A stretch of DNA of 41,324 nt from Bacteroidales bacterium (GTDB taxonomy: Bacteria; Bacteroidota; Bacteroidia; Bacteroidales; UBA10428), in assembly GCA_016936215.1 (NCBI GenBank), contig JAFGPL010000099.1, positions 68,190 to 109,513 of the forward strand, in the 5' to 3' direction. Of the stretch, positions 2,550 to 21,592 are shown in pieces. How positions within the stretch are numbered: the stretch's first letter is position 1; every line of letters starts with the position of its first letter. The position numbers and the translations under genes are program-made. The notes below the pieces were generated by a model. It saw only the letters and a program-made list of their open reading frames with translations. It did not search any database and had not been told where the DNA came from.

Positions 2550-3680
2550 TTAACTACTTTGGCAAATATTATATATCCGTTCATATGCTAATTCCTGTTC
2601 TTCAGTTGATTGGCAGTAGGTTACCACGATAAGTTTCATGCCTGGCACCCATAGCCGCTTTAACTGGTTTTCCAAAGTATTTGTATCACCAACAATCCTG
2701 GCGTTTAAAACCACACCGGTATGGGCAAATTTTTGGAATGATTCGTGCTTATCAGTTGCCCCTGGATCAGTCTCAAAAGAAAAAGCGCCATCGGCCATGA
2801 GGATACCATTAATGTTCAGCACAGCTTCAATCATCCCAGACCAGTCACCACAGGAGTGGAAGACAGGGCCGCCAAATGGCTTACCTGCTTTTTCGACCGA
2901 GGGCGCCGCGAGCTGCAAATACTGTTCAGGTGAAATCATTACAGCATTGTCATCGCTCATACCAAGCCCTCTCCATTTCTTTGATGATGCAAAACCATGG
3001 CCCGGAAGTACAAGAGCATCGCCTATAATTTTTACCTGCTCCTTGTTGAAAGCGATTGACAAATCAGCAAGAATATCAAATAGTTTGAGTATTTTATCGG
3101 GATGAATAAGAAATTCATAAAAAAAAATATCGAGAGGGATTAGCTGATTGACAATGTTCAGAGGGGATTGGGTATCGGTGAGGGAGACCGGCAGCGTGCC
3201 TTTGGTCTGCTCCATGAAATAATTTATCATTTGCAATGTATGCCGCCCGATATTAGTCAAGGCAACTTCTTTAGGGGAATATGCAAGTAATTCATCAACA
3301 CTTTTAAAGAGTGGTTTCATCACGGGGGCATTTCCTTCGGGCCATTCATAATCCCCGCCGAAAGCGCTGGCAATGGTACCAATACCATACCAGGGTTCGA
3401 GAAAATTCGGGACATCGGCTTTAAACTGCATGCTTTTTTGCAAAGCGCCCAACTGTAGTTCAAGTGAATCCTGCATATCTTTGCATCCATATGAAAAACA
3501 TTGAGCAACCCTCATTCTGCGGTAAACGAGCACTCCTGAAGATGATTTCCAGAACCGTTCACATTGCACATTCAATGCTTCTGCATATGCTGCATAGCCA
3601 TCATAGTCAAAATCTTGACTTTTAATTGGAATAACCTGCGAAGCCTGTGAATCTGCTATGTTGACATTGAATTTCTTCAC
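2550..3680 (-). CDS. UroD/MtaA-like zinc methyltransferase homologue 1
   Basis: This 376-aa cytoplasmic protein has no signal peptide. It belongs to the uroporphyrinogen decarboxylase (COG0407) superfamily, which also holds the methylcobamide:thiol methyltransferases MtaA and MtbA. It carries the H-x-C-x(n)-C zinc signature of the methyltransferase branch: His275 and Cys277 in FHSCGDW, then Cys356 in VVTYC, with 78 residues between the cysteines. That pattern argues against a true haem-pathway HemE. It lies between a CE8 gene (76 bases upstream) and the hexuronate transporter (6 bases downstream). Methyl donor and acceptor are unknown. Use of methanol released by the neighbouring esterases is an inference. 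No corrinoid-binding partner is encoded in the window. Confidence 0.85.
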   Translation of the reverse strand: MKKFNVNIADSQASQVIPIKSQDFDYDGYAAYAEALNVQCERFWKSSSGVLVYRRMRVAQCFSYGCKDMQDSLELQLGALQKSMQFKADVPNFLEPWYGIGTIASAFGGDYEWPEGNAPVMKPLFKSVDELLAYSPKEVALTNIGRHTLQMINYFMEQTKGTLPVSLTDTQSPLNIVNQLIPLDIFFYEFLIHPDKILKLFDILADLSIAFNKEQVKIIGDALVLPGHGFASSKKWRGLGMSDDNAVMISPEQYLQLAAPSVEKAGKPFGGPVFHSCGDWSGMIEAVLNINGILMADGAFSFETDPGATDKHESFQKFAHTGVVLNARIVGDTNTLENQLKRLWVPGMKLIVVTYCQSTEEQELAYERIYNICQSS

Positions 3681-3756
3681 TTAAATAAATAATTCAATTA
3701 AGTATTCTTAATTAAAAAATATATAGTGTATTATAATTAGAAAAATCCAAATAGCA

Positions 3757-5724
3757 TCAATCCAGTTTATGGAATTTTCCATTGAAGATATTCCCGTTCC
3801 ATTTCATGCTATACAGATACACACCACATTTTAATTCAGATACATCAGCATCAACTGTTGTGGCACCAAGGGGGATATTTTTCAGGTTAGCTGCAATTTC
3901 CAATCCACCTTTCAAATTAAATATTTCGAGTACGGTGTCTGTTAATTCATCATATTGATTAACGACCATCAGATTATTCCTGGCGCAAACGAGTGAAATA
4001 TTTGGCACTGCTGTACTGTGGCTATTAACAAGACCGGAAGGAAGATCCACGAATATTTCATAGGTGCTTTTGGTAACTTTGTCCACTGCAGTTACTTCTA
4101 CGGTGATTATACCTGGCAAGGTAACCGGGTTGGTCCTCAAATAATTCTGTCCTGTTACTTTGGTATACACTCCCACCGAGGAAATTTTGTTTGTACCCGG
4201 CCTCAACCTGTATTGATAGTTGCGTACATCAGGCTGGCAATGAATGGTATCGGAAGAGTTAATGATAAAAAAACGTAAGTCGGTATCCCAATAGGCAGAA
4301 TCTTTTGAAAAATAAACATTATATGTCGCACCGTTTACCTTATCTTTAGATAGTGCTGTTACCTTTGCATAACCGGGCAATGCTGTGGGGTAAACCATAT
4401 TTACAGTGGCTCCCTGCTCACTAAGCGAAATAAACGGACAGGTGGTATCTTCCTTATCCAGTTCAACCACGTATTCATACTGTAAAGGATCAAATTCTTC
4501 AAACTCAAGACCGTCAATCAACAAACCGTCTATACTCATTTCTCCATTTATTGAATCCATTATCCGGTATGTGTTGTTTTTAATAACCTGGTAAACATCG
4601 TCGTAAAACACAGGCTTCCAATTTTCTGTAGGGTATTCGGGATAATGATCCCTGCCGGCATATAGGATGGTGTCTGCCCTTTCAGGGTATCCCGATTTTT
4701 CAAAGCGGCGGTAAAGATGCATTAGTTCAGAGGTATCGCCATCATAACCTAAATGGGAAGGGAAATTTCGAGCTGAAAAGATAGTATCAATATTGTACCG
4801 CGGTGCTTTGGACGGATCAAGCTGTTTTCCGAAATATACCCGGTTGGTTGTATCAGAACCGGGGCCAAAGCAATTATATTCCTGATAGATACAGGTTTTT
4901 TCCCTTTGTGACCAGGTCGTCCAGCCACCGGGAATAATGCTTTCAGGCTCCCAACACTCATAGTATATCGTATTGGACCAGTCAAACCATGGCCTACCCA
5001 ATGAAACATTTCTTACACCCAATCCGGATGTAAGTCTGCAGTTCTTAAAAACATATCCAAACTCATAATGCTGAGGTGTAGAAGCTGCTGTAATGTAACC
5101 AGTAGAGGCATTTGTATGAACCTGGCAACTGTCAAAAAGAGTAACTCCGAAACCAAAAATATAATCAACATTGCCTTCTATAAAACAATCTTTGATATAC
5201 CTGCGGGTCCTGAAGTTATCGAAATAGGTATCCTGGTTGCCAAGCAATTTACAATGATATAATATCTGGCGGTCGCCATTGGAATGAAAAGCAACACCTT
5301 GCCCCTGGCCGCCGGCTGTTGATTCGAAAGAAATGTTGTATGCCTGAAAATCATTTGCATCTGCCCGAAAAGTATAAGTACTGAAAGTATGTCCGGGAAG
5401 CACCTTATTGGCATAGTCATCGTAGGTAATTACTGTGCTGTCGGCATCTTCGCCCACCAATATCACCTTCGTCTTTCTATGTCCGAGTATAACTTTTTCA
5501 TAATAGACCCCTTTTTTAACAAAAATCACCTTCCAGGTATCGTTATCATCGGGTATGGCATTAATGGCATCCTGAACCTTAACAAAGTCTCCTGTGCCAT
5601 TAATATCAACCACATAATTTATTTTTCCCGAAAGCTGGTCATAAACAGATTGTGCTTTTAAATTGCCTGTAAAAACTACAAAAAAGGCGATAATACCAGT
5701 CAATAAGAATACTTTATTTTTCAT
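3757..5724 (-). CDS. Multidomain pectin methylesterase (CE8) with C-terminal T9SS sorting domain
   Basis: This 655-aa protein has a signal peptide (1-25) and a CE8 beta-helix at about residues 35-330. The motifs are GVYYEK (72-77), GQGVAF (141-146, in place of the usual QAVAL), GNQDTYF (162-168), VDYIFG (186-191) and SLGRPW (241-246). The predicted catalytic residues Gln142, Gln164, Asp165, Asp187 and Arg244 are all present. After a linker, residues of about 395-490 look like a cadherin-like beta-sandwich (FDPLQYEYVVELDKE, then PGYAKVTALSKDK). A second similar beta-domain follows. The last 70 or so residues (IFNLKGGLEIA, then DVSELKCGVYLYSMKWNG) match a type A T9SS sorting domain. Predicted location is the cell surface or outside the cell. 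It sits between the two UroD-like genes. Confidence 0.93.
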   Translation of the reverse strand: MKNKVFLLTGIIAFFVVFTGNLKAQSVYDQLSGKINYVVDINGTGDFVKVQDAINAIPDDNDTWKVIFVKKGVYYEKVILGHRKTKVILVGEDADSTVITYDDYANKVLPGHTFSTYTFRADANDFQAYNISFESTAGGQGQGVAFHSNGDRQILYHCKLLGNQDTYFDNFRTRRYIKDCFIEGNVDYIFGFGVTLFDSCQVHTNASTGYITAASTPQHYEFGYVFKNCRLTSGLGVRNVSLGRPWFDWSNTIYYECWEPESIIPGGWTTWSQREKTCIYQEYNCFGPGSDTTNRVYFGKQLDPSKAPRYNIDTIFSARNFPSHLGYDGDTSELMHLYRRFEKSGYPERADTILYAGRDHYPEYPTENWKPVFYDDVYQVIKNNTYRIMDSINGEMSIDGLLIDGLEFEEFDPLQYEYVVELDKEDTTCPFISLSEQGATVNMVYPTALPGYAKVTALSKDKVNGATYNVYFSKDSAYWDTDLRFFIINSSDTIHCQPDVRNYQYRLRPGTNKISSVGVYTKVTGQNYLRTNPVTLPGIITVEVTAVDKVTKSTYEIFVDLPSGLVNSHSTAVPNISLVCARNNLMVVNQYDELTDTVLEIFNLKGGLEIAANLKNIPLGATTVDADVSELKCGVYLYSMKWNGNIFNGKFHKLD

Positions 5725-5760
5725 TTTTTAAGGTGCTTTATAAATAAATTCGAAAATTAG

Positions 5761-5777
5761 ATAATCATACCATTTTG
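5761..5777 (-). repeat. 17-base repeat, copy 2 (between UroD-like 2 and the T9SS CE8 gene)
   Basis: This is an exact copy of 301-317, lying in the 63-base gap downstream of a UroD-like gene stop. On the minus strand it reads SKWYDYLIF in one frame, similar to the CE8 C-terminus, and may be a vestige of a lost CE8 gene end. Confidence 0.45.
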
Positions 5778-5787
5778 ACAAAACTAT

Positions 5788-6867
5788 TTATTTTGTTGCA
5801 TATTCTTTCCTTAATTCTAACACTGATTTGAAAATTGCAGATATTTTGTCATCGGCAACCTGGTCATCAATGTTGATACAACACACTCCGGTAAGGTACG
5901 GATTTTCAGAATCTGTAACGAGTTTTTTAATTGTGTTTTCAATCTCTATAGTGGTCATTCCGATCAATTCAACAGGACTCAGCCTGATATTCAGAAATGT
6001 GTCCGGGAGATGTCTTCTCAGCATAGCAACATCCCCGCCCCAGCCCACATCAAGAAAGTCTAGGTGGGGTATTTTGGCAAAACTAGCAGCCATACGGTGC
6101 GGGTCGGGACCGCAATAATGAATTCCAAAGGGCCGCATTCTGCTCCACTCAATATCAAAGTGCATCAGGTAGTTTTCGTAATCCTCAGCCGATATCATGG
6201 TATGGGAGCACTCTGAATGAAGGAATACCGGTTTTTTGAGATGTCTTACCACACGGTTGACTGAGATGGAGGAGGTACCCGTATGGGTGGCGATTACAGA
6301 TGTAAACTTATCAATTACTGCCGCAATTTGTTCAAAAAAATGTTTTACCTCTTCGGGTGACAGCATCATATCTGTAAAGATACTCTCGCCCCTGATGTCC
6401 ATTGCAAGATTCAAAATGCCTCCCCAGTTGACATCCCCGGTAAGGTAGCCGTACTTACTTTTCAATGCTTCCGTGAGATTAAGAAATTTTTTAAAAGCAG
6501 GAGCATTGAAAACATCATCCTTATTCAGTCCAGGGGTTTCCCTGTTTGCAACCATAACCTGCGGAGGATGAGAACCGGAGTAATTCACTTTGCATCCTGC
6601 CATTTCTGAAAGAAGGAATCCGGCTGCAAGATGCACTGCGCCTATTTCAGGCCTTTTCTCCGGCTTATTTTGGCCCAATCCGAATTGGCCCCATTTTTCA
6701 TACAGCGTTTTTTCCATCATCTGTTCGGCTTCAATTCTTCTGTGCGGATGAAAGAAAAAATCTTCATCAAATGTAAGTCCTGTGTTCCTGTGCCACCATT
6801 CCGGTGCAAGAACAATGTCCACCGGCAGGAGCTGATTTCCAAGAAGCGGGTTAAAAGGGTAATCCAT
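5788..6867 (-). CDS. UroD/MtaA-like zinc methyltransferase homologue 2
   Basis: The protein is 359 aa from the ATG at 6867. A longer frame starts at 6933, but its first 22 codons overlap the end of the upstream gene and read like that gene's other frame. The 6867 start lies 10 bases after the upstream stop and gives the natural N-terminus MDYPFNPLLGNQ. It is a COG0407 member with no signal peptide. His250 and Cys252 (GIHYCGPDP) plus Cys329/Cys330 (GVCCINID) give H-x-C-x(76-77)-C, the zinc signature of MtaA-type methyltransferases. It lies between the 914-aa enzyme and a CE8 gene. The acceptor thiol and the methyl donor cannot be read from sequence. Confidence 0.85.
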   Translation of the reverse strand: MDYPFNPLLGNQLLPVDIVLAPEWWHRNTGLTFDEDFFFHPHRRIEAEQMMEKTLYEKWGQFGLGQNKPEKRPEIGAVHLAAGFLLSEMAGCKVNYSGSHPPQVMVANRETPGLNKDDVFNAPAFKKFLNLTEALKSKYGYLTGDVNWGGILNLAMDIRGESIFTDMMLSPEEVKHFFEQIAAVIDKFTSVIATHTGTSSISVNRVVRHLKKPVFLHSECSHTMISAEDYENYLMHFDIEWSRMRPFGIHYCGPDPHRMAASFAKIPHLDFLDVGWGGDVAMLRRHLPDTFLNIRLSPVELIGMTTIEIENTIKKLVTDSENPYLTGVCCINIDDQVADDKISAIFKSVLELRKEYATK

Positions 6868-6877
6868 AGTATCAAAA

Positions 6878-9622
6878 TTAATAAAACAACCAGTCAATTC
6901 CTTCAATATTTTCCTTGCCTCCAAGGCCGGCATCGCGCATGATGATATCCTGATCTGCTTTCATAAAGCCAAGGACAAGCACAAGCCCTTTATCAAATTT
7001 TAATACATTTTCTCCTGCATCAAACCTGTAGGTATAGATGTTAACAGGAAAAAGTCCCGGCACATCCAATGCATTGGCGATACGGATGTCGGCCTGCCCG
7101 CGATCGTTGGCATGTGCATTGGTCTCGAGCGAAGGAGGTTGCAGAAGCCTGTAGCTGTTACCGTTAAAAAAGCCGACAACCACCTTAACGGGCTCTTTGC
7201 ATGAAAAATGTATCTCCGTGCCCTGTTCAAGCTGTTTTTCGTATGAAAACCTGATACCTGATATTGATTTGAGTTCCCCGGCATATGCATTAATCTTAAA
7301 GTCTTTATCAGAGTATATCTGTTCTTTCTGATCTATTCGATACCTTTCCAGTCCTTCATCTTTAAGTATAACATCAGCCGGCTGCAATTCGGCTATTTCG
7401 CGGCTTACTGTACCATCAGCAGATTGTCTGAGTGCCTGAATATTTCTTTTGAAATTGAGCAATTCTTCTTCGTATCCGGGTAGTAGTTCGATCCATGTTT
7501 TGTTCCTGCCTCCAGCACCGCTGATGGGTATGCGTCTTTGTTGAGTTTGCATACTATTGGCATACAAATATTTATCTTTAGTTAACTCAACCAATTGTTC
7601 ATAGTGTTGAACGCTTTTCTCAAGCTGGGGTACGGCACTGTCAAGATCGGCAACATTATTGGAATATTTGTATTTCAAAACAAAAAGGGCAGCCCTGACT
7701 CTTTCGGCAAAATACCAGGCGAAGGCATGGTAACAATAAACATCATTCTTAAACCTTGTAAACTCCTCGTTATTGTTCATTATATGCCGTTCAGCAGCAT
7801 CAACAGCCTTTTTTGCCTCTTCAGCATGCTGAACAACTTCGAGAATAATCTGCATTGGAGTTTCACCTTTATGGGGTTTATTAATCCATTCTTTTTCAGC
7901 ATATTCAAGCAGAATTTCACCCTCAGGTCCGTTTGATGAATAAAAATTGCTGTATACCTGCCATTTATAAGGATTCACAAGCTGGCTCATAAACATCCCG
8001 AGTAACAGGGTTTGCCTGTTTCCATCGGAGATACCAAACCTGCGGAGCAGTTTAGGGGCGATCTCGCCTGTCTGTTCATATGCTTTAAGAATTTCGTTAC
8101 CGTATTCACCACACTTGTAAAAATCTGCAAGAATCCGTGACCAGTATTTGTTTTCTGATACGCTGTCTTGATGGCAATTCCAGGCGTATCGGGCCCATGC
8201 CTTGTACCATATCCGGTCACGGTCAACCTGTAGCAGTCTCGGATTGGTATTATCGGCAGCATATGGCCAGTCCCAGTATGATGCCTGCGGGTATAGGTGC
8301 AGTCCGTTGGCCCCCTGTATATCGTGCATAGCAATTACCGACTTTCTGATGAAATCGGGCGAACCATACCTGAAGGGTTCAAGGTTGGCCAAAATATGCA
8401 CATTTGAAATATGCACCGAACCGAGATTGCTCAGGTCCCTGTGTATTTTTTCCCATGATCCGCGAGGTTCATAGGTAGTAAGTGACTCACCGTTATATTT
8501 ATGCATTGTATAAAGGTTGGAGTAAAGAGGTAATGCAGCCTCCATTACCCTTTTGGCATCGGTATCGTGGCCTCTTAAAATAAGCGGTGGCTCCTCTGTT
8601 CTGCCAAGCGCAGCCAGACCGTCCTTTACACCGGGAATAATTGTTTCTGTAAACCATTGAATATCGTCTTCGATGGTATTCATTGCCTCTCCCAGGCAAA
8701 CCATTAAACCGACATTCGGGTATTTATGTATAAATGCTTTTACCGATTTTCTTGTATAATCAGCTATAACAGGCATTATCGGCCGGCTCCTGTCCTGTGT
8801 CTTAATTCCATAATGTTCGGCAAACGGTTTTGAAACAATAATGTTGTAAAACATCTGCACTATATAGATTCCCCTCTTATCAGCTTCGTTTGTCAGAAAA
8901 CTGAAAATCGCTTCATTTTTTTCAAAGGTTTCATTATCCACTTCAACTGCAAACGGGTATTCTTCCAGTCTGACCAGGGAAGCAAACGGATGGCCGTTCC
9001 ACAGGTAGAGTGCATTCATCCTGTTTTCAACCAGCATATCAAGGTACTTAATCCACAACTCTTTATCGTAGAACCAGGGAAAGTTTTCGGGAGTGTATGG
9101 ATATTCATATACGCTTCTACCGGGCAAATAGGTTGTTTTCTGAAGCCCGATACAGGCTCCTCTCATCACCATTTCTGGCTGATCGGTGAATGTTAAGTCA
9201 GGTAACAGATTATTACCTTTTTCTATTCTATCTGCCATCTCAAGACAGCCATACAAAGTACCTGAAGCGTCAGCACCGGCAATAATTAACGACTCATTCA
9301 CGGGTATCAGGTAAAAGCCTTCTTTGCCCGGCACAATACTCATTCCTATGGATAGCTTAGTCATAAGTGATTTAAATTCAGGATCTGTTACCACACCAAT
9401 AATTACATGTGTCTTTTTCCTGGTGAGCAATGGATTGTCCTGAAATTTTACCTCATATCCTTTATTCTTCACATTTTTAGTTAAAATTTCAGCACCGAAC
9501 TGAATTCTTGGATTTGATTTACCTACAATTGCCATATGTACTAATGATTTCTGACAGAACCCTGTTGGAAAAATCAAAATCAGCAGGCTAATTGTTATAG
9601 AAATTAATTTTATTATTCTCAT
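6878..9622 (-). CDS. Exported putative glycoside hydrolase with GH67/GH20-like N-terminal domain, family unassigned
   Basis: This 914-aa protein has a signal peptide (1-23). Residues of about 25-150 resemble the small alpha/beta domain that precedes the catalytic barrel in GH20, GH67 and related enzymes (GFYLIPVN, then AGADASGTLYGCLEMADRI). A large central region follows that looks like a TIM barrel with aromatic-rich conserved segments: MRGACIGLQK, YLWNGHPFASLV, LMVCLGEAM and HLYPQASYWDWP. Beyond about residue 450 it appears helical, and the C-terminus looks like a beta-rich domain. Acidic residues such as the Glu in CLGEAM are catalytic candidates only. It is the first gene after susD, separated by a hairpin. 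An alpha-glucuronidase- or alpha-galacturonidase-like role is possible, but I cannot name a family with confidence. Confidence 0.6.
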   Translation of the reverse strand: MRIIKLISITISLLILIFPTGFCQKSLVHMAIVGKSNPRIQFGAEILTKNVKNKGYEVKFQDNPLLTRKKTHVIIGVVTDPEFKSLMTKLSIGMSIVPGKEGFYLIPVNESLIIAGADASGTLYGCLEMADRIEKGNNLLPDLTFTDQPEMVMRGACIGLQKTTYLPGRSVYEYPYTPENFPWFYDKELWIKYLDMLVENRMNALYLWNGHPFASLVRLEEYPFAVEVDNETFEKNEAIFSFLTNEADKRGIYIVQMFYNIIVSKPFAEHYGIKTQDRSRPIMPVIADYTRKSVKAFIHKYPNVGLMVCLGEAMNTIEDDIQWFTETIIPGVKDGLAALGRTEEPPLILRGHDTDAKRVMEAALPLYSNLYTMHKYNGESLTTYEPRGSWEKIHRDLSNLGSVHISNVHILANLEPFRYGSPDFIRKSVIAMHDIQGANGLHLYPQASYWDWPYAADNTNPRLLQVDRDRIWYKAWARYAWNCHQDSVSENKYWSRILADFYKCGEYGNEILKAYEQTGEIAPKLLRRFGISDGNRQTLLLGMFMSQLVNPYKWQVYSNFYSSNGPEGEILLEYAEKEWINKPHKGETPMQIILEVVQHAEEAKKAVDAAERHIMNNNEEFTRFKNDVYCYHAFAWYFAERVRAALFVLKYKYSNNVADLDSAVPQLEKSVQHYEQLVELTKDKYLYANSMQTQQRRIPISGAGGRNKTWIELLPGYEEELLNFKRNIQALRQSADGTVSREIAELQPADVILKDEGLERYRIDQKEQIYSDKDFKINAYAGELKSISGIRFSYEKQLEQGTEIHFSCKEPVKVVVGFFNGNSYRLLQPPSLETNAHANDRGQADIRIANALDVPGLFPVNIYTYRFDAGENVLKFDKGLVLVLGFMKADQDIIMRDAGLGGKENIEGIDWLFY

Positions 9623-9699
9623 TAATAATATAATTTACAATATTATACGATATATTAAATAAAATAAAAATTTAATAACACAAAGCTAAATAAGTTAAA

Positions 9700-9729: not shown

Positions 9730-9772
9730 AAAAGAAAAAACAATAAGAGAAACCAAAACTGTTTTAAATACC

Positions 9773-11542: not shown

Positions 11543-11559
11543 AATTTTATATATTTCAA

Positions 11560-14500
11560 TTATAAGTCAAGGTTTACACCAAAAATAATTTGTCTGCTCA
11601 TAGGTGTCTTTTCAGAACCACTGTTTTCCGGATCATAATATTTAATCAAATGACTCTTTGCCACAGTAAACAAATTTGAAGCAGTACAATATACCCTCAT
11701 CTTTTCTATCTTTAATTTGGTAGAGATAGCCCTGGGCAGTGTATATCCAAGTGAGATATTTTTCAATTTAAAGAATGAACCATCGACATATGGAAGAGTC
11801 TGATAATAAGAATAATCAATTAACCTTTGATTACGTGGTTGTGGAAAATCATTGGTAGGATTTTCAGGTGTCCAGTAGTCAAGATAAGCCGGTCCATTTC
11901 CCGTACCAGCCGGATTGTACCTGCTTAGTAGTTCATTCTTGATCATTTGTCCCCATCTGGCAAACAGGTATACACTAAGATCAAAGTCTTTGTATGTGAA
12001 GGTATTCTGAAAACCACAAACCCATTTAGGGGATTTAGAGCCTATGTAAGTCCGGTCGTTGTTGGCATCTATTATGGAGTCATTGTTTAGGTCAGCAACT
12101 TTAATTTCTCCTGCCTGCACCGGGGTTTTCATAGCAGCCATTGCTTCAGTTTCATCAAGTTGCCAGATACCAAGTTTCTGATAATTATAATATGAACCTA
12201 TTGGTTTGCCAAGCAACAATGACCGGTCTTCGGGACTGCTGCCGCTTATAATATCTGTTCCATCTATCAGGCTTACAATTTTCTCGTTATTTCTTGAGAA
12301 GGTGACAGATGAGGTCCATTTAAAGCTTGCTGTGCGAACATTCAAGGTATTCAGAGATATTTCAATTCCTTTATTTTGACTTGAACCAATGTTTTGCCAG
12401 ATAAGAAAAGGTGATTCGATATCACCCCCGAGCGACATAGGCAATGAACGTGCCATTAGAATACCTGTGGTCTTTGTACTATATAAGTCAATTACAACAA
12501 CAGCCCTGTTGTCAAGCACAGCAAAGTCCAATCCCAGGTTATAGGATGCCGAACGTTCCCATTCAAGATTTTCATTTGCCTTATTCACTTTGAAAAAATA
12601 TGTCGGGACAACTTTTTCGCCAAAGGACTGAGGTTTAGTTCCGGGCTGTATGCCACTAATGGTACCATAAGGTTCAATGGAAGCAATTCCAGCTTCGCCA
12701 TAACTAAGCCTAAGTTTCAGATCAGTTAAAAATCCGATATTTCTGGCAAAATTTTCATCGCTTATACGCCATGCCATTGCTATTGAAGGAAACCATGACC
12801 ATTGATGTCCCGGAGACAAACGAGAGTTACCGTCAAGTCTTTCTGTTAAAGTGAGGAGATATTTGCCTTTATAGCTGTAATTCAGCCTTCCGGCATATGA
12901 CATCGTTTTTGTACCAGTATATTGCGATTCGATGGTACGGGTAGTAATATCTGAAGATTCGATATTATAAAACAGAAACGAATTATATAAACCTTTGTTT
13001 TCTTGCCCAGAACCTAAGGCATACAAATAGTCACTTATTCCTTCAGTATAACTTGTAATTCCTGTTACTGTAAAAGAATGACCAGACAATTCTTTTGTAT
13101 AGGTTATAATATTGTCCCAGTTAATGTTTCTTGAATTGGTTGCGTTGATCGAAGCTATACTGTAATTATCACTGTATTGGCTCATAGAAAGACTGTCATT
13201 AAAAATACCACGGCGACTGAAATTTATATTTGCTCCCAATACTGTCTTTAATGATAAGCCATTGAAGGGAGTTATTTCAAGGTAACCAGATGTAAAAATT
13301 TTACTGGAGATGTTATTGTTTATTGCTGCATTCTCCCTTGTATCAGTTAGTGGGTTTATCACCGAGTTATCACCAGCAATAGGATATAAGTTCAATGATC
13401 CGTCTTCATTATAAACTGTACCGAGAGGTGACATAGCATTGGCTTTGCTAAGTGCATCCACTTTTGAATCGTTATTAATATAGGTTACCTGCGCCTGCAA
13501 TCCTGCCTTTGCCCATTTGGCGAAATTACTTTCAGAGTTCAGGCGGGCAGTGTATCTTTTGTAGGCATCTTTTATCGGTCCCTGTTCATCATAATAACCA
13601 ACAGAAAAATAAGTGCTGCTTTTTTCGTTTCCACCACTAACAGACAGTTGATGACTTTGCAACTTGCCGTTGTCAAGAATATAATCTGTCCAATTGATCC
13701 ATTTTCCTTCTCGAAAAGCCTGCCATTCATCAGGATGAGGGAATAATGCCTGGTCATCATCCGGAGAATTCCAAAGAGTTCCACGATTAGCTTCCCTTCT
13801 AAGCTGAAGATAATCATCACCAAAACGTCCTTCAGGATAAGGCGTTAGGCCATTGACACCGTAATATCCGTTATAGGAAACTTTGGTCTTACCGGCTTTA
13901 GCTTTTTTTGTAGTGATTATGATAACACCATTAGCCCCCTGCCAACCATAGATAGCCGTGGTTGAGGCATCTTTAAGTACTTCAATGGATTCTATATCAT
14001 TGGTATTAAGGTCAGAAAAACTCCCACCCTGTATTCCATCAATTATAAATAAAGGCCTGTTCAGGTCATCAAAGGTTTCAGGCCTGTTGGGATCACCAAA
14101 TGACCTGTTGCCACGAACTTTAATGGTAACATCAGAGCCAGCCCTTCCGGTATTTCTTATAATATCCACACCGGTTACTCTTCCCTGTATTGCTTCCATA
14201 GCATTTAAAGTAGGAGTTTTAATAATGTCTTCTGCTTTCACAGAACTCACCGCACCTGTAAGGTCTCTTCTTTTAACTGTGCCATAACCTATCACAACCA
14301 CTTCGTCAAGCGACATGATGTCTTCAACCAGAACCATGTTGATTTCGGTCTGGTTGTCAACAGTCACCTCTTCGGTGAGCATACCTATAAAAGAAAATAC
14401 AAGTACGGCATCAGATGACAATCCGGTAAGGGCATAATCACCTTCCGTATCAGTAATAGTACCCTGCTCGGTGCCTTTAATGATAACATTCACGCCGGGT

Positions 14501-14607
14501 ATAGGTTCACCGGTACTGTTGGTGACCTTACCAGTCACCTTTACCTGTGCCCACAGGGAACAGGTAAATAATAAAATCAAAGCAAAGACAAATAAATTCT
14601 TTTTCAT
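11560..14607 (-). CDS. susC: SusC/RagA-type TonB-dependent outer-membrane transporter
   Basis: This 1015-aa protein has a signal peptide (1-20), a carboxypeptidase-regulatory-like beta-sandwich (about 22-95: VTGKVTNSTGEPIPGVNVII) and the SusC plug signature (SLDEVVVIGYGTVKRRDLTG). The plug domain (IEVLKDASTTAIYGWQGANG) and a long beta-barrel ending in a hydrophobic beta-strand (IIFGVNLDL) follow. It imports oligosaccharides across the outer membrane using TonB energy, paired with the SusD gene directly downstream. There is no N-terminal secretin/STN extension, so it is not an obvious anti-sigma-regulated transducer. It is the first gene of the minus-strand operon. The 336-base upstream region shared with the divergent group carries CG-centred palindromes that may be operators. 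Confidence 0.96.
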   Translation of the reverse strand: MKKNLFVFALILLFTCSLWAQVKVTGKVTNSTGEPIPGVNVIIKGTEQGTITDTEGDYALTGLSSDAVLVFSFIGMLTEEVTVDNQTEINMVLVEDIMSLDEVVVIGYGTVKRRDLTGAVSSVKAEDIIKTPTLNAMEAIQGRVTGVDIIRNTGRAGSDVTIKVRGNRSFGDPNRPETFDDLNRPLFIIDGIQGGSFSDLNTNDIESIEVLKDASTTAIYGWQGANGVIIITTKKAKAGKTKVSYNGYYGVNGLTPYPEGRFGDDYLQLRREANRGTLWNSPDDDQALFPHPDEWQAFREGKWINWTDYILDNGKLQSHQLSVSGGNEKSSTYFSVGYYDEQGPIKDAYKRYTARLNSESNFAKWAKAGLQAQVTYINNDSKVDALSKANAMSPLGTVYNEDGSLNLYPIAGDNSVINPLTDTRENAAINNNISSKIFTSGYLEITPFNGLSLKTVLGANINFSRRGIFNDSLSMSQYSDNYSIASINATNSRNINWDNIITYTKELSGHSFTVTGITSYTEGISDYLYALGSGQENKGLYNSFLFYNIESSDITTRTIESQYTGTKTMSYAGRLNYSYKGKYLLTLTERLDGNSRLSPGHQWSWFPSIAMAWRISDENFARNIGFLTDLKLRLSYGEAGIASIEPYGTISGIQPGTKPQSFGEKVVPTYFFKVNKANENLEWERSASYNLGLDFAVLDNRAVVVIDLYSTKTTGILMARSLPMSLGGDIESPFLIWQNIGSSQNKGIEISLNTLNVRTASFKWTSSVTFSRNNEKIVSLIDGTDIISGSSPEDRSLLLGKPIGSYYNYQKLGIWQLDETEAMAAMKTPVQAGEIKVADLNNDSIIDANNDRTYIGSKSPKWVCGFQNTFTYKDFDLSVYLFARWGQMIKNELLSRYNPAGTGNGPAYLDYWTPENPTNDFPQPRNQRLIDYSYYQTLPYVDGSFFKLKNISLGYTLPRAISTKLKIEKMRVYCTASNLFTVAKSHLIKYYDPENSGSEKTPMSRQIIFGVNLDL

Positions 14608-14693
14608 AGTTAATAATAATTGGTTCTGCTATTTAAGTTATTAGGTTCTTTAATTATCTGAATTGTAAAGTATTGTAATTAGTGATTAGAAAT

Positions 14694-14707
14694 TGTAATC
14701 GTTTACA
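14694..14707. promoter_or_regulatory. Candidate LacI-family-like operator, site 1
   Basis: TGTAATCGTTTACA is a near-perfect CG-centred palindrome, broken at one base pair. It matches the general TGTAAxCGxTTACA form bound by many LacI-family regulators. It lies about 87 bases upstream of the susC start. No LacI-family gene is in the window, so the regulator is unknown. Confidence 0.45.
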
Positions 14708-14761
14708 TGGCTTATATATCATATTTTAAGGTATTTATATTTGTTTAACACGATTAAATCT

Positions 14762-14775
14762 TGTAAACGTTTTTA
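14762..14775. promoter_or_regulatory. Candidate LacI-family-like operator, site 2
   Basis: TGTAAACGTTTTTA keeps the full left half-site TGTAAACG and the central CGTTT, and departs from a perfect palindrome in two right-half bases. Its centre is 68 bp from that of site 1, and it is upstream of the plus-strand -7 box at 14799. Paired sites in one divergent promoter region suggest looping or joint control (inference). Confidence 0.4.
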
Positions 14776-14798
14776 TTACAATATTAATTTTCTTATCA

Positions 14799-14806
14799 TA
14801 GATTTG
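14799..14806 (+). promoter_or_regulatory. Candidate Bacteroidota -7 promoter box for the plus-strand acetylesterase group
   Basis: TAGATTTG matches the Bacteroidota -7 consensus TAnnTTTG. No clear -33 TTTG partner is seen at the usual distance. It would give a leader of roughly 130 bases before the ATG at 14944. Confidence 0.35.
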
Positions 14807-14943
14807 CAAATAATTTCCTATAAAATAATTAAGAAATTATGGTTTTTTTTCAGCATCTAAGTTAATATTGAAGAAATTTTCCTGAGTTTTATACCAAAAT
14901 TTTATTGCAATAAATACTATCTTCATCTGTTAAACACATTATC

Positions 14944-16377: not shown

Positions 16378-16464
16378 CAGGTACACAGAAATATGAATAT
16401 AAAACATTTTTCCAAGAATTGTTTTTTAATTTATTTTCTACTTTAACTGATAATTTCATTTAAT

Positions 16465-18786
16465 ATGAAAATCAGATTTTTATTTATTTTCTTAATTCTC
16501 AACTTGATTCTTGCAGGTAGCCGGTGCCAAACTCCTTTGCCCGATGAATATAATCTTGTATGGAATAAACAAAGCAGGAATTCATCCGAGTCAATGCCTT
16601 GTGGAGGCGGGGATATTGGTCTGAATGTGTGGGTTGAAAACGGCGACATCCTGTTTTACATATCCCGCAGCGGAACGTTCGATGAAAACAATGGTTTCCT
16701 GAAACCGGGCAGGGTACGGATTAAAATGAACCCGAACCCATTTAGTGGCGCAGTATTCACGCAGGAACTTGTTTTAGAAGATGGAAATATAAAAATCACA
16801 GGTTCTGATCATTCCACGAATGCTTCGGCCTTGATTTGGGTAGACATATACAATCCGGTGATTCATGTTGAAATTAGTACCAGCAGTCCTGTTGATGTTG
16901 AAGTAACATATGAGAACTGGCGATACCGTGACCTGCAATTGAGAAAAACAGAGAGTTTCGCAAATTCTTTTAAATGGTCGCCATTTGACAGCCTGAAAAC
17001 ATTGCGGGACGAGGTCTTGTTTAGAGCAGACAATTTACTTTTTTATCATCGCAACAGGAAACAAACCGTATTTGATGTTACCGTGGAACAACAGTCGTTG
17101 GACAAGGTTAAAGAACAACTATTCAATCCTTTAAATAATCTCACTTTTGGCGGTTTGATGACAGCGAAGAACATGAAACCCGATGGCACTGTCACTGGAA
17201 AATATCTTGATACCGAATTTAAAGGGTGGAAACTGAAAAGCCGAAACGCTTCAAAGTTGCATCATATACGTATCTTTCTGCATACTGCCAAGACAGATAC
17301 CTTTGAAGAATGGGAAGACGGTCTGGAACGTTTGATAAAGCATTACTTAAAGACTGAGAAACCGGCTTACAGCAAAACCACCGCCTGGTGGCGTGAATAC
17401 TGGAAAAGAAGCTTTATTATAATTCAGCCCGGCCATTCTGATCCCAATTCACCAGAATGGCAGGCAGGGCGTAATTATCAGCTTTTCAGGTATATGCTTG
17501 GCTGCAATGCTTTTGGTGAATATCCGACCAAATTTAATGGCGGTTTGTTTACATACGATCCACGGTTTACAGATTCAACAAGGAGTTTCACCCCCGATTA
17601 CAGAAACTGGGGCGGAGGAACTTTTACCGCGCAAAATCAGCGGCTGGTATATTTTCCGATGCTAAAGAGCGGTGATTTTGATATGATGAAACCCCAGTTT
17701 GATTTTTATTCAAGAATTCTGAAGAATGCCGAAATGCGGTCTAAAGTATATTGGGGCCATGAAGGCGCTTGTTTCACCGAACAGATGGAGAATTTCGGAT
17801 TGCCTAATTGCACAGAATACGGATGGAACCGTCCTGACTGGTTTGACAAAGGATTAGAATACAATGCATGGCTGGAATACCAGTGGGACACTGCGCTGGA
17901 GTTTTGCCTGATGATACTTGAAACTGAAAGATATGCCGGAAAAGACATAACAGAATATTTGCCATTGATTGAGAGTTGCCTGACCTTTTTCAACGAACAT
18001 TACCAATACCTCGCCAAAAGACGTGGCATAAAGGCTTTTGACGGCAACGGAAAACTAATCCTATATCCGGGAACAGCATGTGAGACATACAAGATGGCAT
18101 ATAACCCGGTTTCAACCGTTGCAGCACTAAATAAAATCTTATCAAGAGTCATTGAATTGCCTGAGAACTATCTTGATGCCCAAGCCAGGGAAAAATGGCA
18201 GTTGATGCTTAAACGCATACCACCGTTAAGTTTCAGGGAGATCAACGGGCATAAGACCATTGCACCAGCCAGGTTGTGGGAAAGGGTAAATAACACCGAA
18301 ACACCGCAGTTATACCCGGTTTTTCCATGGGGAATTTATGGAATTGGTAAGCCTGATCTGGATATAGCATTAAATACCTGGAACCATGATCCCGACGCAA
18401 TAAAATTCAGAAGCCATGTTGGATGGAAGCAGGACAATATCTTTGCGGCAAGATTAGGGCTGACTAAAGAAGCCTCTGACCTGACCCTATTGAAACTGAA
18501 AGATTCGGGCCGCAGGTTTCCTGCATTCTGGGGACCCGGTTTTGACTGGGTACCGGACCATAACTGGGGAGGGAGCGGAATGATCGGACTTCAGGAGATG
18601 CTGATGCAGGTTTATGACAAAAAGATTTATCTTTTCCCTGCCTGGCCAGAGACCTGGGATGTTCATTTTAAGCTGCATGCACCTTACAACACCACAGTAG
18701 AAGGAATTTTCAGGGATGGTAAACTTGAAAATCTAATAGTTATACCCGAAGAAAGAAAAAATGATATCATCAACATGTTTGAGTAA
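16465..18786 (+). CDS. DUF5703-type exported protein, probable glycoside hydrolase with (alpha/alpha)6-like fold
   Basis: This 773-aa protein has a signal peptide (about 1-21). The N-terminal region (MPCGGGDIGLNVWVENGD, then YISRSGTFDENNGFLKPGRV) matches what I know as the DUF5703 domain, which resembles the N-terminal beta-domain of GH95-type enzymes. The middle and C-terminal parts (WWREYWKRSF, then HEGACFTEQMENFG, then WDTALEFCLMILETERY, and a final beta-rich tail) fit an alpha/alpha toroid with a C-terminal beta-domain, as in GH65/GH95-like architecture. Conserved Glu residues in HEGACFTEQME are catalytic candidates. Substrate is unknown. Its position after an acetylesterase suggests action on a deacetylated pectic oligomer. 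I am sure of the gene and only fairly sure of the domain name. Confidence 0.7.
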   Translation: MKIRFLFIFLILNLILAGSRCQTPLPDEYNLVWNKQSRNSSESMPCGGGDIGLNVWVENGDILFYISRSGTFDENNGFLKPGRVRIKMNPNPFSGAVFTQELVLEDGNIKITGSDHSTNASALIWVDIYNPVIHVEISTSSPVDVEVTYENWRYRDLQLRKTESFANSFKWSPFDSLKTLRDEVLFRADNLLFYHRNRKQTVFDVTVEQQSLDKVKEQLFNPLNNLTFGGLMTAKNMKPDGTVTGKYLDTEFKGWKLKSRNASKLHHIRIFLHTAKTDTFEEWEDGLERLIKHYLKTEKPAYSKTTAWWREYWKRSFIIIQPGHSDPNSPEWQAGRNYQLFRYMLGCNAFGEYPTKFNGGLFTYDPRFTDSTRSFTPDYRNWGGGTFTAQNQRLVYFPMLKSGDFDMMKPQFDFYSRILKNAEMRSKVYWGHEGACFTEQMENFGLPNCTEYGWNRPDWFDKGLEYNAWLEYQWDTALEFCLMILETERYAGKDITEYLPLIESCLTFFNEHYQYLAKRRGIKAFDGNGKLILYPGTACETYKMAYNPVSTVAALNKILSRVIELPENYLDAQAREKWQLMLKRIPPLSFREINGHKTIAPARLWERVNNTETPQLYPVFPWGIYGIGKPDLDIALNTWNHDPDAIKFRSHVGWKQDNIFAARLGLTKEASDLTLLKLKDSGRRFPAFWGPGFDWVPDHNWGGSGMIGLQEMLMQVYDKKIYLFPAWPETWDVHFKLHAPYNTTVEGIFRDGKLENLIVIPEERKNDIINMFE

Positions 18787-18861
18787 CTAATCGAAAATTG
18801 TTTATTTTTAAATCCTTATTCCCCTAAAGGGATTATTACATAATAAAAACTTTAAAATAGA

Positions 18862-20481
18862 ATGACCGGTAAGGAACGAATAATCAAAACCATCAGGCTC
18901 GAAGAAACCGATCGCATCCCATGGGTGCCATTTGTTGGATGTCACGGGGCTAAATTACTGAATATCAGCGCAGAGGAATATCTTAAATCTTCGCATCATA
19001 TTGTCAATGGGATCAGTAAAGCCATTGAACTATACCAGCCAGACGGTATCCCTGTGATGTTTGACCTTCAGATTGAAGCTGAAGCGCTCGGATGTAAGCT
19101 GGCCTGGTCCGACAACAATCCTCCCGCTGTTGTTTCGCATGTTTTGTCTGAAGGGGTTAAATTGTCAGACCTGAAAATCCCCGATAAAAACTCAGGACGA
19201 ATACCCCTGATCATAGAAGCAACCGGTTTACTTCGTAAAAAATTTCCGGATACCGCCCTGTATGGTCTTATCACCGGACCTTTCACACTGGCGTTGCATC
19301 TTCTTGGCACCGATATCTTTACAAAGATGATGGAAGTACCTGATGAGATTTTCACATTGCTTGAATTTACAAAAGAGGTCAATAAAGCAATGGCAGATTT
19401 ATATATTGATGCAGGTTGCGATGTGATTGCCGTAGTAGACCCGATGACTTCACAGATTGACCCGGGATCGTTCGAAATGTTTGTCACGCCACCTGCGACG
19501 GAAATTTTTGAATATATCAGAAAAAAGGGTGCCATGGGTTCATTTTTTGTCTGCGGTCATGCACAGCAGAACATTGAAGCGATGTGTGAATGTAAGCCAG
19601 ACAATATTTCGATTGATGAAAATATCCCGCTTGATTTTGTGAAAGATATTGCCATAAGGCATAAAATCAGTTTTGGCGGAAATATTAAGCTCACGGTTAT
19701 ATTGCTGATGGGAACTCCTGAAGATGCACAACGTGATGCACTTGAATGTATGGACCTTGGCGGAAATATTGGTTTTATGCTGGCCCCCGGATGTGACCTG
19801 CCAATGGATACACCGGTTGAAAATCTCCAGGCCATTACAAAACTAATAAATGACAGTTATTTGCAGGAAGTAATCAGGGCAAAGGAAAAAAGTGAATCTG
19901 ACCTTGCCCTTCTGAATATGAAGGATTATGGGAATGCCAACAAAGTGATCGTAGACATTATCACCCTCGACTCGGAATCGTGCGCACCATGCCAATACAT
20001 GGTTGAAGCGGTTAAAACCATTGCTCCTCAATTTGAAGGAATCGTGGAATGGAGGGAGCATGCCATCAAAAAAATGGAGGCGGTGACTTTTATGAATTCG
20101 CTGATGGTAAAAAACATACCAACCATCTGTATTGACGGTAAAATTGCATTTGTATCACAGATTCCCCCAAAACATGAATTGATTGCTGCCATACAGAAGC
20201 GAATAAACGAGAAGCTAAAACTACTCATCAAATCAAGAAATGCAGAGATTTTGATTATCGGAAAAACTGATGAAGAGTGTAAACATGTGAAAATAAATAT
20301 TAAACAAGCCATTCAGGAAACCGGTAAAAACATCAATGTTAATGTTACGACCGATGAAAACATCAGGTTGTCGTTTGGCATAAGCAATACGCCTGCTGTA
20401 GTACTAACTGAACACAAAGTAAAATCACAGGGGGAGGTGCCTAAAGTTGAGATAGTCAGGGAGTGGTTGAAGGAGTTGTAG
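18862..20481 (+). CDS. UroD/MtaA-like methyltransferase homologue fused to two thioredoxin-like domains
   Basis: This 539-aa cytoplasmic protein has three parts. Residues 1 to about 340 are a COG0407 UroD/MtaA-like barrel (MTGKERIIKTIRLEETDRIP at the start, LAPGCDLPMDTPVEN near the end). The zinc-motif cysteines are Cys231 (FVCGH) and Cys311 (APGCD), 79 residues apart. The His that normally precedes the first Cys by two residues is Phe229, and a His follows at 233. Residues of about 350-435 form a small thioredoxin-like domain with an intact CAPC motif (Cys374, Cys377) and a cis-Pro-like NIPTICIDGK. Residues of about 440-539 look like a second such domain (STPAVV equivalent NTPAVVL) with only one cysteine, Cys473. 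The fusion suggests thiol or disulfide chemistry coupled to the methyltransferase site. Substrate is not known. Confidence 0.85.
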   Translation: MTGKERIIKTIRLEETDRIPWVPFVGCHGAKLLNISAEEYLKSSHHIVNGISKAIELYQPDGIPVMFDLQIEAEALGCKLAWSDNNPPAVVSHVLSEGVKLSDLKIPDKNSGRIPLIIEATGLLRKKFPDTALYGLITGPFTLALHLLGTDIFTKMMEVPDEIFTLLEFTKEVNKAMADLYIDAGCDVIAVVDPMTSQIDPGSFEMFVTPPATEIFEYIRKKGAMGSFFVCGHAQQNIEAMCECKPDNISIDENIPLDFVKDIAIRHKISFGGNIKLTVILLMGTPEDAQRDALECMDLGGNIGFMLAPGCDLPMDTPVENLQAITKLINDSYLQEVIRAKEKSESDLALLNMKDYGNANKVIVDIITLDSESCAPCQYMVEAVKTIAPQFEGIVEWREHAIKKMEAVTFMNSLMVKNIPTICIDGKIAFVSQIPPKHELIAAIQKRINEKLKLLIKSRNAEILIIGKTDEECKHVKINIKQAIQETGKNINVNVTTDENIRLSFGISNTPAVVLTEHKVKSQGEVPKVEIVREWLKEL

Positions 20482-20668
20482 GAAGAGGTGTTAATGTGCT
20501 AATGTGCTAATTTGTTAATTATAGAATTTGAAGAAGAGAAAATGGGAAGATGAGAGGATGTGGTAATAAAACAATTTGAAAATTAGTTAATTAGACAATT
20601 TGAGAATGGGTAACTGATAAGGTGAGAAGTGAGATTTAGAGATGAAAGAATTTCAATTTTAATTAAGA
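20482..20668 (+). repeat. Degenerate short direct repeats in the intergenic region before the CobW-like gene
   Basis: This stretch contains tandem copies of an 8-mer (TAATGTGC TAATGTGC, then TAATTTGT TAATTATA near 20491-20522). Scattered AATTTGAA/AATTTGAG/AATTAG units follow to about 20600, and the rest is purine-rich. It has no credible open frame. Low-complexity repeats of this style recur between genes in many Bacteroidota genomes (general recollection, not checked). It separates the UroD-thioredoxin gene from the CobW-like gene. Confidence 0.5.
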
Positions 20669-21592
20669 ATGTCAAAAATACCGGTTTATCTGATTACAGG
20701 ATTTCTGGGAAGCGGGAAGACTACTTTTTTAGAACATGCCTTGGATTTTTTTAATGGAAAGGGTAAAATTGGCATTGTACAGAATGAATTTGCACCTGCC
20801 AATATTGACGGCAAAGAACTCAAACGCACAGTAAATGCCGATTTTAACCTACTTGAAATCAATAACGGGTCGGTATTCTGTGTCTGCCTGCTTTCGGGAT
20901 TTATCAAATCGCTAATAAGCTTTATCGAACAGTATCATCCCGATGTTATATTGCTTGAATGCAGCGGTCTTTCTGATGTTCTATCAGTTGCCCAGGTATT
21001 TGATGCACCTACCCTTCAGAATCTGGTTTACCTGTCAGGCACCATTTGCATCATTGATGCGGTAAATTTTGAAAAAACCATTACCCTGATGCCGCGTGTG
21101 AAGCACCAGATTATGCTTGCAGACTACCTGCTTATCAATAAAGCAGATATGGTGGAGGATACCGGTAAAATACTTCAGGCTGCCAAAAAAATAAATCCTT
21201 TCGGGAAAATTTACACCACAGTTTATTGCAATGCCCCACCCGATGAGATTTTTCAACCTGTAAAACAACCATCCTGGGAAAAACTGCCCGGGTTTATGGC
21301 ATCAGCTAATTCCGTTAGGCCCGAAATACAATCGGCTGTATTTCGTTCTGTCAAACCCCTGAAAAGCATTCATCTTGAACAATTTATCTGTGCTGTGATA
21401 TCAAAAACATACCGGGTTAAAGGAATTATATGGCTTGATAATAACAAGCATATTTCCCTGCAATCAGTATTCGAAGAGAGTAAATATGCTGAAGTAGTTA
21501 CAGATGATAGACAAACTGAGTTGATTGCAGTCGGCAAAGAGGTGGATGCAGGGTCACTAAAAAGATTATACCACTTTTATAACCAGTCTTAA
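20669..21592 (+). CDS. CobW/COG0523-family GTPase, putative metallochaperone
   Basis: This 307-aa cytoplasmic protein has a Walker A GFLGSGKTT (11-19), a QNEFAPANIDG switch-like region, LLECSGLSDV (Walker B area) and the guanine-specificity motif NKAD. A C-terminal CobW_C-like domain follows (FRSVKPLKSIHLEQF, then VKGIIWLDN). COG0523 GTPases deliver metals such as zinc or cobalt-related cofactors to client proteins. The usual GCxCC metal motif is altered here to GSVFCVC: two of the three usual cysteines are Ser68 and Phe70, while Cys71 remains and Cys73 is extra. It follows the UroD-thioredoxin gene and is 13 bases from the esterase gene. A role in loading zinc into the UroD-like proteins is inferred. 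Confidence 0.85.
   Translation: MSKIPVYLITGFLGSGKTTFLEHALDFFNGKGKIGIVQNEFAPANIDGKELKRTVNADFNLLEINNGSVFCVCLLSGFIKSLISFIEQYHPDVILLECSGLSDVLSVAQVFDAPTLQNLVYLSGTICIIDAVNFEKTITLMPRVKHQIMLADYLLINKADMVEDTGKILQAAKKINPFGKIYTTVYCNAPPDEIFQPVKQPSWEKLPGFMASANSVRPEIQSAVFRSVKPLKSIHLEQFICAVISKTYRVKGIIWLDNNKHISLQSVFEESKYAEVVTDDRQTELIAVGKEVDAGSLKRLYHFYNQS

Follow-up and report, generated by a model that had tools for sequence, protein, structure and literature searches.

Putative corrinoid methyltransferases in a rhamnogalacturonan II-type pectin locus of a Bacteroidales bacterium

What would three proteins with the fold of uroporphyrinogen decarboxylase (UroD) do in a cluster of genes for pectin breakdown? 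The question is raised by a stretch of 41,324 bp, here called the window, in the genome of a Bacteroidales bacterium (GenBank assembly GCA_016936215.1, contig JAFGPL010000099.1, positions 68,190–109,513; G000:C162:68190-109513 in our numbering), a host genome of 5.3 Mb in 332 contigs. An earlier note on this DNA had placed three UroD-fold proteins, here named A, B and C, and a COG0523 GTPase among three genes for CE8 pectin methylesterases; the open reading frames (ORFs) and domain matches confirm these places, and the gene order that the note gave for operon A is correct. Here we propose that enzymes for both the substrate side and the acceptor side of a corrinoid methyltransferase system are encoded in the window, inside a locus for the pectin rhamnogalacturonan II (RG-II), where they would demethylate an O-methyl sugar, an explanation to which we give a probability of about one half.

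Proteins A and B

Protein A (376 residues) matches PF01208 with an E-value of 5.7e-8, over the family cut-off, as does protein C. Protein B has no Pfam match even at an E-value of 10 and no NCBIfam match at 0.1, and its place in the UroD superfamily rests on profile-profile comparison and predicted fold. The mechanical ORF of B (5788-6933) begins 66 bases before the likely start, which would give an overlap of 56 bases with the neighbouring GH138 gene; a start at 6867 is preferred because homologues begin about there and overlap with the gene ending at 6878 is avoided. Comparison with hhalign joined B to A (probability 95.8, E-value 7.6e-9) and to C (97.0, 7.8e-11), and A to C (94.0), with aligned blocks that extend to the region of a His-x-Cys (HxC) motif. 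AlphaFold2 models of A and B were confident (pLDDT, the predicted local distance difference test, 91.5 and 93.5), and for both the top Foldseek match was the methyltransferase MtaA (4ay7; E-values 5.6e-10 for A and 2.2e-11 for B), followed by further MtaA and UroD structures. Sequence searches of the PDB with B or A, as single sequence or profile, gave nothing meaningful. The UroD fold is settled by these models, yet it is indifferent between methyl transfer and decarboxylation.

The motif is more telling on this point. Both proteins carry HxC followed by a distant Cys, the zinc ligands of MtaA-type enzymes: HxC-x76-C in B (H272, C274, C351) and HxC-x78-C in A (H275, C277, C356). In B the three residues are intact in 79/79 alignment rows from several phyla, a count in which three rows repeat genes already counted and from which one remote relative (L060), with HNC kept and the last Cys not, was left out. 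In A, HxC is found in 29 of 30 rows, the remaining row being a gap, and the last Cys in 26. The earlier note had argued for methyl-group handling and against haem synthesis, and its argument stands: scores against the HemE model TIGR01464 are far under the cut-off (65.5 bits for C against 303, with no match listed for A or B), and haem synthesis was rejected. Scores against the MtaA model NF040654 also stay under its cut-off of 400 (154.4 for C, 14.8 for A, no match for B). Methyl transfer is well supported, and A and B are putative substrate-side methyltransferases (MTI). Judged by their sequences, both families are new, that of B being without a match in either of the two libraries searched.

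The neighbourhoods of B were surveyed in the best 80 of 143 relatives, counted per locus, with neighbours named from blastp matches to 27 reference proteins taken from the window, the host genome and relatives. ORF calling was mechanical (at least 110 residues), hence 9 of the 80 B genes are unlabelled in the neighbour table; three loci (L077, L135, L136) come from the same genomes as others (L052, L056, L057), three (L089-L091) are close relatives, and the loci called non-Bacteroidota, a class assigned by record title, include a few unclassified records. Near B lie A in 23 loci, GH138 in 20 and an MFS transporter in 15. Among the 39 Bacteroidota loci A follows B in 19, directly in 18 and after a CE8 gene, as in the window, in L075. 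The gap between the two genes is -14 to 126 bases in 17 of the 19, 238 in L076 and 2,091 in L075, the last because of the intervening CE8 gene. By gene order A and B are a pair, and the pairing is new. GH138 or GH141 occurs in 18 of the 19 A-bearing Bacteroidota loci (the exception is L083) against 3/20 without A (p = 4e-7), the GH141 label being Pfam-tested for the L089 protein and given by clustering elsewhere, and the MFS transporter occurs in 14 of the 19. The gene set of the window recurs in L075 (PaeX-GTPase-C, GH138-B-CE8-A-MFS). A-B pairs are also found in two planctomycete loci, one spirochaete locus and L144, three of these four with SSS or ABC transporter genes (assigned by reading), and both proteins are carried by three named strains, as opposed to metagenome-assembled genomes: Gaoshiqia sediminis A06, Draconibacterium aestuarii Z1-6 and Maribellus sediminis Y2-1-60.

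A separate family of 355-374 residues with a UroD-like look has LDG at the HxC position (L053:19-1086, L078, L079, L086, L087, L198). Its members lie near B or a corrinoid operon, with an SSS-type transporter adjoining in L053, L196 and L198; the L198 member has no Pfam match, and the L087 member is the same gene as in L196.

At genome level, co-occurrence was tested in a sample of 295 genomes of the order, host included, with Fisher tests that ignore kinship. B is present in 4/5 genomes with A and 4/289 without (p = 1e-6), a set of A from which a 28% match in G131, kept in the 30-row motif alignment, was dropped. The earlier note had called for a test of co-occurrence between COG0407 and CE8 genes; the link holds for A (4/5 against 41/289, p = 0.002) and for B (5/8 against 40/286, p = 0.003), and is not clear for C (4/12 against 41/282, p = 0.09). 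GH138 was tested in 80 genomes, of which 10 bear A or B (host included), 40 bear CE8 without them and 30 are others: it occurs in 5/9 A/B genomes against 6/40 CE8 genomes without A/B (p = 0.019) and 6/70 of all tested without A/B (p = 0.002).

Protein C and the corrinoid partners

A corrinoid system requires partners, and the host genome holds them. A search with PF02607 gave a 1238-residue frame, taken as MetH, and one stand-alone corrinoid protein of 222 residues on contig C30, which carries PF02607 and PF02310. The order on C30 is M24 peptidase, alpha/beta hydrolase, corrinoid protein, a protein with a homocysteine S-methyltransferase domain and a Met_synt_B12 (MetH-activation-like) protein; the names of the peptidase and the hydrolase, like the MFS and ABC names in relatives, were assigned by reading. 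One RACo-type reductive activator was found with PF14574 on contig C109. The earlier note's statement that no corrinoid protein or activator is visible thus holds for the window and not for the genome, and its alternative, that the partners lie elsewhere, is borne out. A MttB-type amine system was rejected, PF06253 being absent from the host genome.

The presence of the corrinoid protein was examined in the genomes of 50 of the 80 B loci (22 Bacteroidota, 28 other). It is found in all 22 Bacteroidota genomes, each at an E-value of 2.8e-83 or better, and in 24 of the 28 others at 1e-25 or better. In the order sample without the host it occurs in 30/294 genomes at an identity of at least 54% and in 42 at a looser threshold; the difference between 22/22 and 30/294 has a p-value of 6.5e-20. 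Within the order, the looser set gives 6/8 B genomes against 36/286 (p = 1.4e-4), and RACo accompanies B in 3/8 against 14/286 (p = 0.008). The corrinoid gene comes immediately after B in L136, and in L089-L091 one strand carries corrinoid-UroD-MetH-activator-GH141-rhamnosidase-GH127-B-A-GH138 (with an extra ORF in L091), the distance from corrinoid gene to B being 8-9 kb.

Protein C has a strong PF01208 match (E-value 1.5e-57) followed by two C-terminal thioredoxin-like stretches, and its nearest solved structure is again MtaA (4ay7, 6e-26). C231, E253, C311 and the thioredoxin CxxC are invariant in 15/15 rows. The full MtaA-type motif is lacking in C and both Cys are kept, as the earlier note had said in crediting two of the three proteins with the full motif. 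C aligns across its full 539 residues in 4/12 relatives and only to residue 444-461 in the other eight, so not all members share the second thioredoxin-like domain; those eight probably have a single one. The neighbouring GTPase has the cobW domain (1.2e-34) and the P-loop (GFLGSGKT) of COG0523/G3E proteins, and shows FCVCL in place of CxCC, the usual metal motif of this family. FC-x-C-nonC is found in 24/24 GTPases that accompany C (the window and 23 relatives; L206 was left out), and CICC in 3/3 near UroD0x, a second MtaA-like UroD, or MtaB. This loss of one Cys is paralleled in C by that of the zinc His; the GTPase, a partner of C, is possibly a metallochaperone. From sequence, the fusion to thioredoxin with a GTPase partner is a new architecture. 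C is a putative methyl-corrinoid:thiol methyltransferase (MTII) and very probably part of a corrinoid methyltransferase system.

The latter judgement follows the neighbours of C, which is present in 13 of the 295 genomes, host included. The corrinoid gene is directly beside C in 8 of 12 relatives and one gene off in two (L061, on the opposite strand, and L064), and the contigs of the remaining two (L067, L071) begin at C; the L068 copy, absent from the ORF table, was confirmed separately. A GTPase lies at most three genes from C in 11 of the 12, and nearby are a MetH-activation-like protein in 7, another UroD in 7, a homocysteine methyltransferase in 3 and RACo in 3. C and the corrinoid protein occur together in 11/12 genomes against 31/282 (p = 1.6e-9). 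Two relatives (L069, L070) have a C-type corrinoid operon with a galactokinase-like gene, an AraC-like regulator (by reading) and a second UroD, which suggests another methylated sugar.

Twenty corrinoid loci from 18 of the 22 B-bearing Bacteroidota genomes were examined. C is found in 10, always with its GTPase, UroD0x, which keeps HNC, in 6, and neither in 4 (L183, L184, L194, L202); UroD genes lie near the corrinoid gene in other loci of the 20. MtaB (PF12176) occurs in four, adjoining the corrinoid gene in L184 and L202 and one gene off in L195 and L201. L184 has the order of host contig C30 with MtaB between the hydrolase and the corrinoid gene, a site at which the host has no gene. L191 reads GH78-GH127-corrinoid-C-GTPase. 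In L196 and L198 a UroD, a rhamnose mutarotase (PF05336) and a rhamnose symporter (PF06379) precede the corrinoid gene; in L197 other genes separate UroD and mutarotase from the symporter, in L200 only the symporter of the three is on the contig, and the host has the same trio in L013 (contig C188), where the contig ends within the UroD. The association hints at demethylation of an O-methyl deoxysugar. In G308 a corrinoid operon lies about 14 kb from the B-A pair on what, judged by length, is the same contig; L196, judged by length and a shared gene, is on the contig of L087, whose B-A pair is about 14 kb off. Seventeen non-Bacteroidota corrinoid loci showed no clear pattern.

On host contig C256 (L011, 3460-13639) a further UroD (8274-9302) stands in an apparent uronate catabolism cluster with genes that by reading are uronate-isomerase-like, UxaE-like, SDR and LarA-like; a 60% relative of this UroD adjoins homocysteine methyltransferase and corrinoid genes in L194.

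Weighing the explanations

What is observed are the genes, their predicted folds and motifs, and the co-location and co-occurrence described above; the scheme that follows, from catalytic steps and substrate to acceptor and cell compartments, is inferred from them. Exported GH138, GH127, GH78 and CE8 enzymes would trim RG-II, and the MFS transporter would import a sugar or sugar acid that carries an O-methyl group; the most likely candidates are 2-O-methyl-D-xylose and 2-O-methyl-L-fucose. Xylose and fucose are channelled into metabolism by C1-C2 isomerisation, which a 2-O-methyl group prevents. A and B would act in the cytoplasm and shift the methyl group from the oxygen of the sugar to the stand-alone corrinoid protein in its Co(I) form, leaving a demethylated sugar that an isomerase could use. 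C would pass the methyl group from the corrinoid to a thiol, probably that of homocysteine, an acceptor suggested by the methyltransferase domain encoded beside the corrinoid gene. The thioredoxin domains of C and the COG0523 GTPase would maintain the site of C, and the RACo-type and MetH-activation-like proteins would keep the corrinoid protein active. It is likely that A and B belong to a corrinoid methyltransferase system, an O-methyl sugar is rather favoured over methanol as their substrate, and the further step to the 2-O-methyl sugars of RG-II in particular is tentative.

Several observations weigh against this scheme. Only 5 of the 80 B loci (the best of 143) have the corrinoid gene within about 10 kb. 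G208 has intact A and B, yet neither a corrinoid protein nor RACo passes the thresholds used; the same is true of G294, in which B is truncated, and G219 has a corrinoid match of 46% identity only and no RACo. The corrinoid protein is absent from 4 of the 28 non-Bacteroidota B genomes, including G317, the genome of L081, the background rate given above covering the order only. The non-Bacteroidota neighbourhoods of B are diffuse and not RG-II-like, with transporters, Gfo/Idh and UxaE recurring in a few, so the wider B family may use other substrates. C is found in none of the 8 other B genomes of the order, and in C a Phe takes the place of the zinc His in 15/15 rows (F-V-C). The VIA-align comparisons, given below, add to these points.

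The best-surviving alternative is that A and B, or C, are methanol:corrinoid methyltransferases that harvest the methanol released by CE8. The three CE8 genes of the locus speak for it, as do the enrichment of CE8 in A- and B-bearing genomes and the MtaB genes beside corrinoid genes in relatives, above all L201, where one run (L201:2279-12959) holds a GH28 polygalacturonase, UroD, MFS (by reading), corrinoid protein, UroD0x, MtaB, COG0523, RACo and MetH-activator, a candidate cluster for the capture of pectin methanol. However, MtaB is a different family and coexists with A and B in four genomes (G298, G302, G307, G308), which would make A and B superfluous there; uptake of methanol should not require a transporter, and A and B often accompany MFS, SSS or ABC transporter genes; and their closest link is to RG-II enzymes. 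MtaB was not found among the 21 window proteins scanned, the whole host genome not having been searched. The transporters, the RG-II hydrolases and the four genomes with MtaB favour a sugar, and methanol is the less likely substrate of A and B. The earlier note's proposal of methyl capture from pectin is upheld in its methyl handling and in the CE8 link of A and B, and is less likely in its methanol version for these two proteins.

It is improbable that A and B are instead UroD-fold lyases or decarboxylases of an unusual RG-II sugar acid, such as aceric acid or a uronate, with the corrinoid association coincidental. VIA-align tied MtaA and UroD for B (Z about 21.6-21.9) and put UroD ahead of MtaA for A (21.3 against 19.5). 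RG-II does hold unusual sugar acids, aceric acid among them according to excerpts of PMC7939467, UxaE-type genes lie near B in 5/41 non-Bacteroidota loci (2 Pfam-confirmed), and G208 could be read in the same way. Against this stand the zinc-type motif in every B row, the corrinoid protein in all 22 Bacteroidota B genomes, and the corrinoid gene that adjoins B in L136 or shares its same-strand run in L089-L091.

Equally doubtful is that C and its GTPase form a methionine-synthase-like system unrelated to pectin, brought here by chance rearrangement and separate from A and B: the homocysteine methyltransferase and MetH-activation-like protein of the host corrinoid locus, the unclear CE8 link of C and its absence from the other B genomes of the order would fit, but L075 keeps C and GTPase beside GH138-B-CE8-A-MFS, L191 joins them to GH78 and GH127, L081 has the row RACo-C-GTPase-B, and C lies by the corrinoid gene in half of the 20 corrinoid loci. 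The present reading also differs from that of the earlier note in that the three UroD-like proteins are not equivalent, A and B being a pair and C a corrinoid-side enzyme without the zinc His.

The locus and related systems

The features of the window are listed in Table 1. The minus strand carries, in order, SusC, SusD, GH138, B, CE8, A, MFS and CE8, and the plus strand a SASA esterase, the DUF5703_N protein, C, the GTPase and the PaeX-like esterase; beyond the latter follow the fucose-isomerase-C protein, GH127, an oligogalacturonate-lyase-like protein under its Pfam cut-off, and GH78. The alpha-galacturonidase matches PDB 6hzf (BPa0997) with an E-value of 0 and scores 1473 bits against the NF049878 cut-off of 1300. 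Since it is a relative of GH138, the family of BPa0997/BT0997, the locus looks aimed at RG-II. A label of GH95 for the DUF5703_N protein was dropped; a 47% relative of this protein adjoins B in L052/L077, and it is possibly an RG-II enzyme.

Table 1. Features of the window (positions counted from its first base).
Position	Strand	Feature	Basis
283-1278	minus	CE8 pectin methylesterase	Pfam-level match
1293-2543	minus	MFS transporter, ACS/galactonate-transporter-like	domain-library match
2550-3680	minus	protein A, UroD-fold, partner of B	PF01208 and motif HxC-x78-C
3757-5724	minus	CE8 pectin methylesterase, between B and A	domain match; same place in L075
5788-6867	minus	protein B, UroD-fold family	profile-profile, fold and HxC-x76-C
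6878-9622	minus	GH138-type alpha-D-galacturonidase, RG-II chain A enzyme	PDB 6hzf and NF049878
9773-11542	minus	SusD-like outer-membrane glycan-binding protein	domain match
11560-14607	minus	SusC-like TonB-dependent receptor, plug and carboxypeptidase-regulatory domains	domain match
16465-18786	plus	DUF5703_N protein	domain match
18862-20481	plus	protein C, MtaA/CmuA-like UroD domain and two thioredoxin-like domains	
20669-21592	plus	COG0523/G3E GTPase, FCVC replacing CxCC	cobW match
21606-22535	plus	pectin acetylesterase-like hydrolase (PaeX-like, under model cut-off)	
22698-24119	minus	fucose-isomerase-C family protein, possible sugar isomerase	
24183-26204	minus	GH127 beta-L-arabinofuranosidase family	
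27584-30337	minus	GH78-type alpha-L-rhamnosidase	
36730-39963	plus	CE8 pectin methylesterase with secretion-sorting tail	

Systems of this kind are known; the sugar context of A and B is new. According to excerpts of PMC13222342, the UroD superfamily has established MTI enzymes for the corrinoid-dependent demethylation of O-methyl donors. CdmB, MtvB, OdmB, VdmB, MtoB and CmuA belong to the same superfamily as A and B and, with a small corrinoid protein and an activator, demethylate O-methyl or chloro-methyl donors. A and B differ in being paired and far from the family models searched (B matching none), in keeping HxC...C, where CdmB is zinc-free (same excerpts), and in being tied to sugar transport and RG-II hydrolases rather than to methoxyaromatics or haloalkanes. 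C resembles the methylcobamide:coenzyme M methyltransferases MtaA and MtbA in its nearest structure and in the Cys and Glu residues kept, and differs in the change from His to Phe, the fused thioredoxin-like domains, the regular COG0523 neighbour and a score under the curated MtaA cut-off. The MtaB/MtaC methanol system has the same hub parts, and MtaB lies near the same corrinoid clade in the loci of four relatives; A and B differ from it in sequence family and context.

The RG-II system of Bacteroides thetaiotaomicron (BT0997) is likened to the window by GH138, GH127, GH78 and SusC/D and to relatives by GH141 and GH2. In the available text of PMC7939467, which describes the activity of BT0997, 2-O-methyl-xylose belongs to RG-II chain A, the chain attacked by BT0997 and the fucosidase BT1002, and the bacterium accumulates the methylated disaccharide 2-O-Me-Xyl-Fuc when grown on an RG-II oligosaccharide, and so does not use the methylated sugar. 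The release of 2-O-methyl-fucose by GH139 enzymes is described in excerpts of PMC12282258, and the excerpts of both papers mention no corrinoid methyl-transfer genes for this system. In the titles and abstract openings of the open-licence PubMed Central literature, the present combination is not described and no enzyme for the demethylation of pectin sugars was found.

The swapping of substrate-side genes around the corrinoid gene is what would be expected of exchangeable enzymes on a shared corrinoid hub. We tentatively suggest that Bacteroidota have a modular B12 hub for sugar O-demethylation, with interchangeable substrate-side enzymes each having its own transporter and hydrolases. The modules might be A and B with RG-II enzymes and the MFS transporter, UroD with rhamnose mutarotase and symporter, and MtaB for methanol. 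On this view A and B could form a sugar O-demethylase dependent on cobalamin, and C could be a methyl acceptor enzyme, fused to thioredoxin, whose metal site has been rebuilt.

If the proposed explanation is true, a corrinoid O-demethylase would explain how bacteria other than B. thetaiotaomicron finish the breakdown of the methyl sugars of RG-II, pectin breakdown would be tied to one-carbon metabolism and vitamin B12, and two uncharacterised protein families would join the methyltransferase repertoire.

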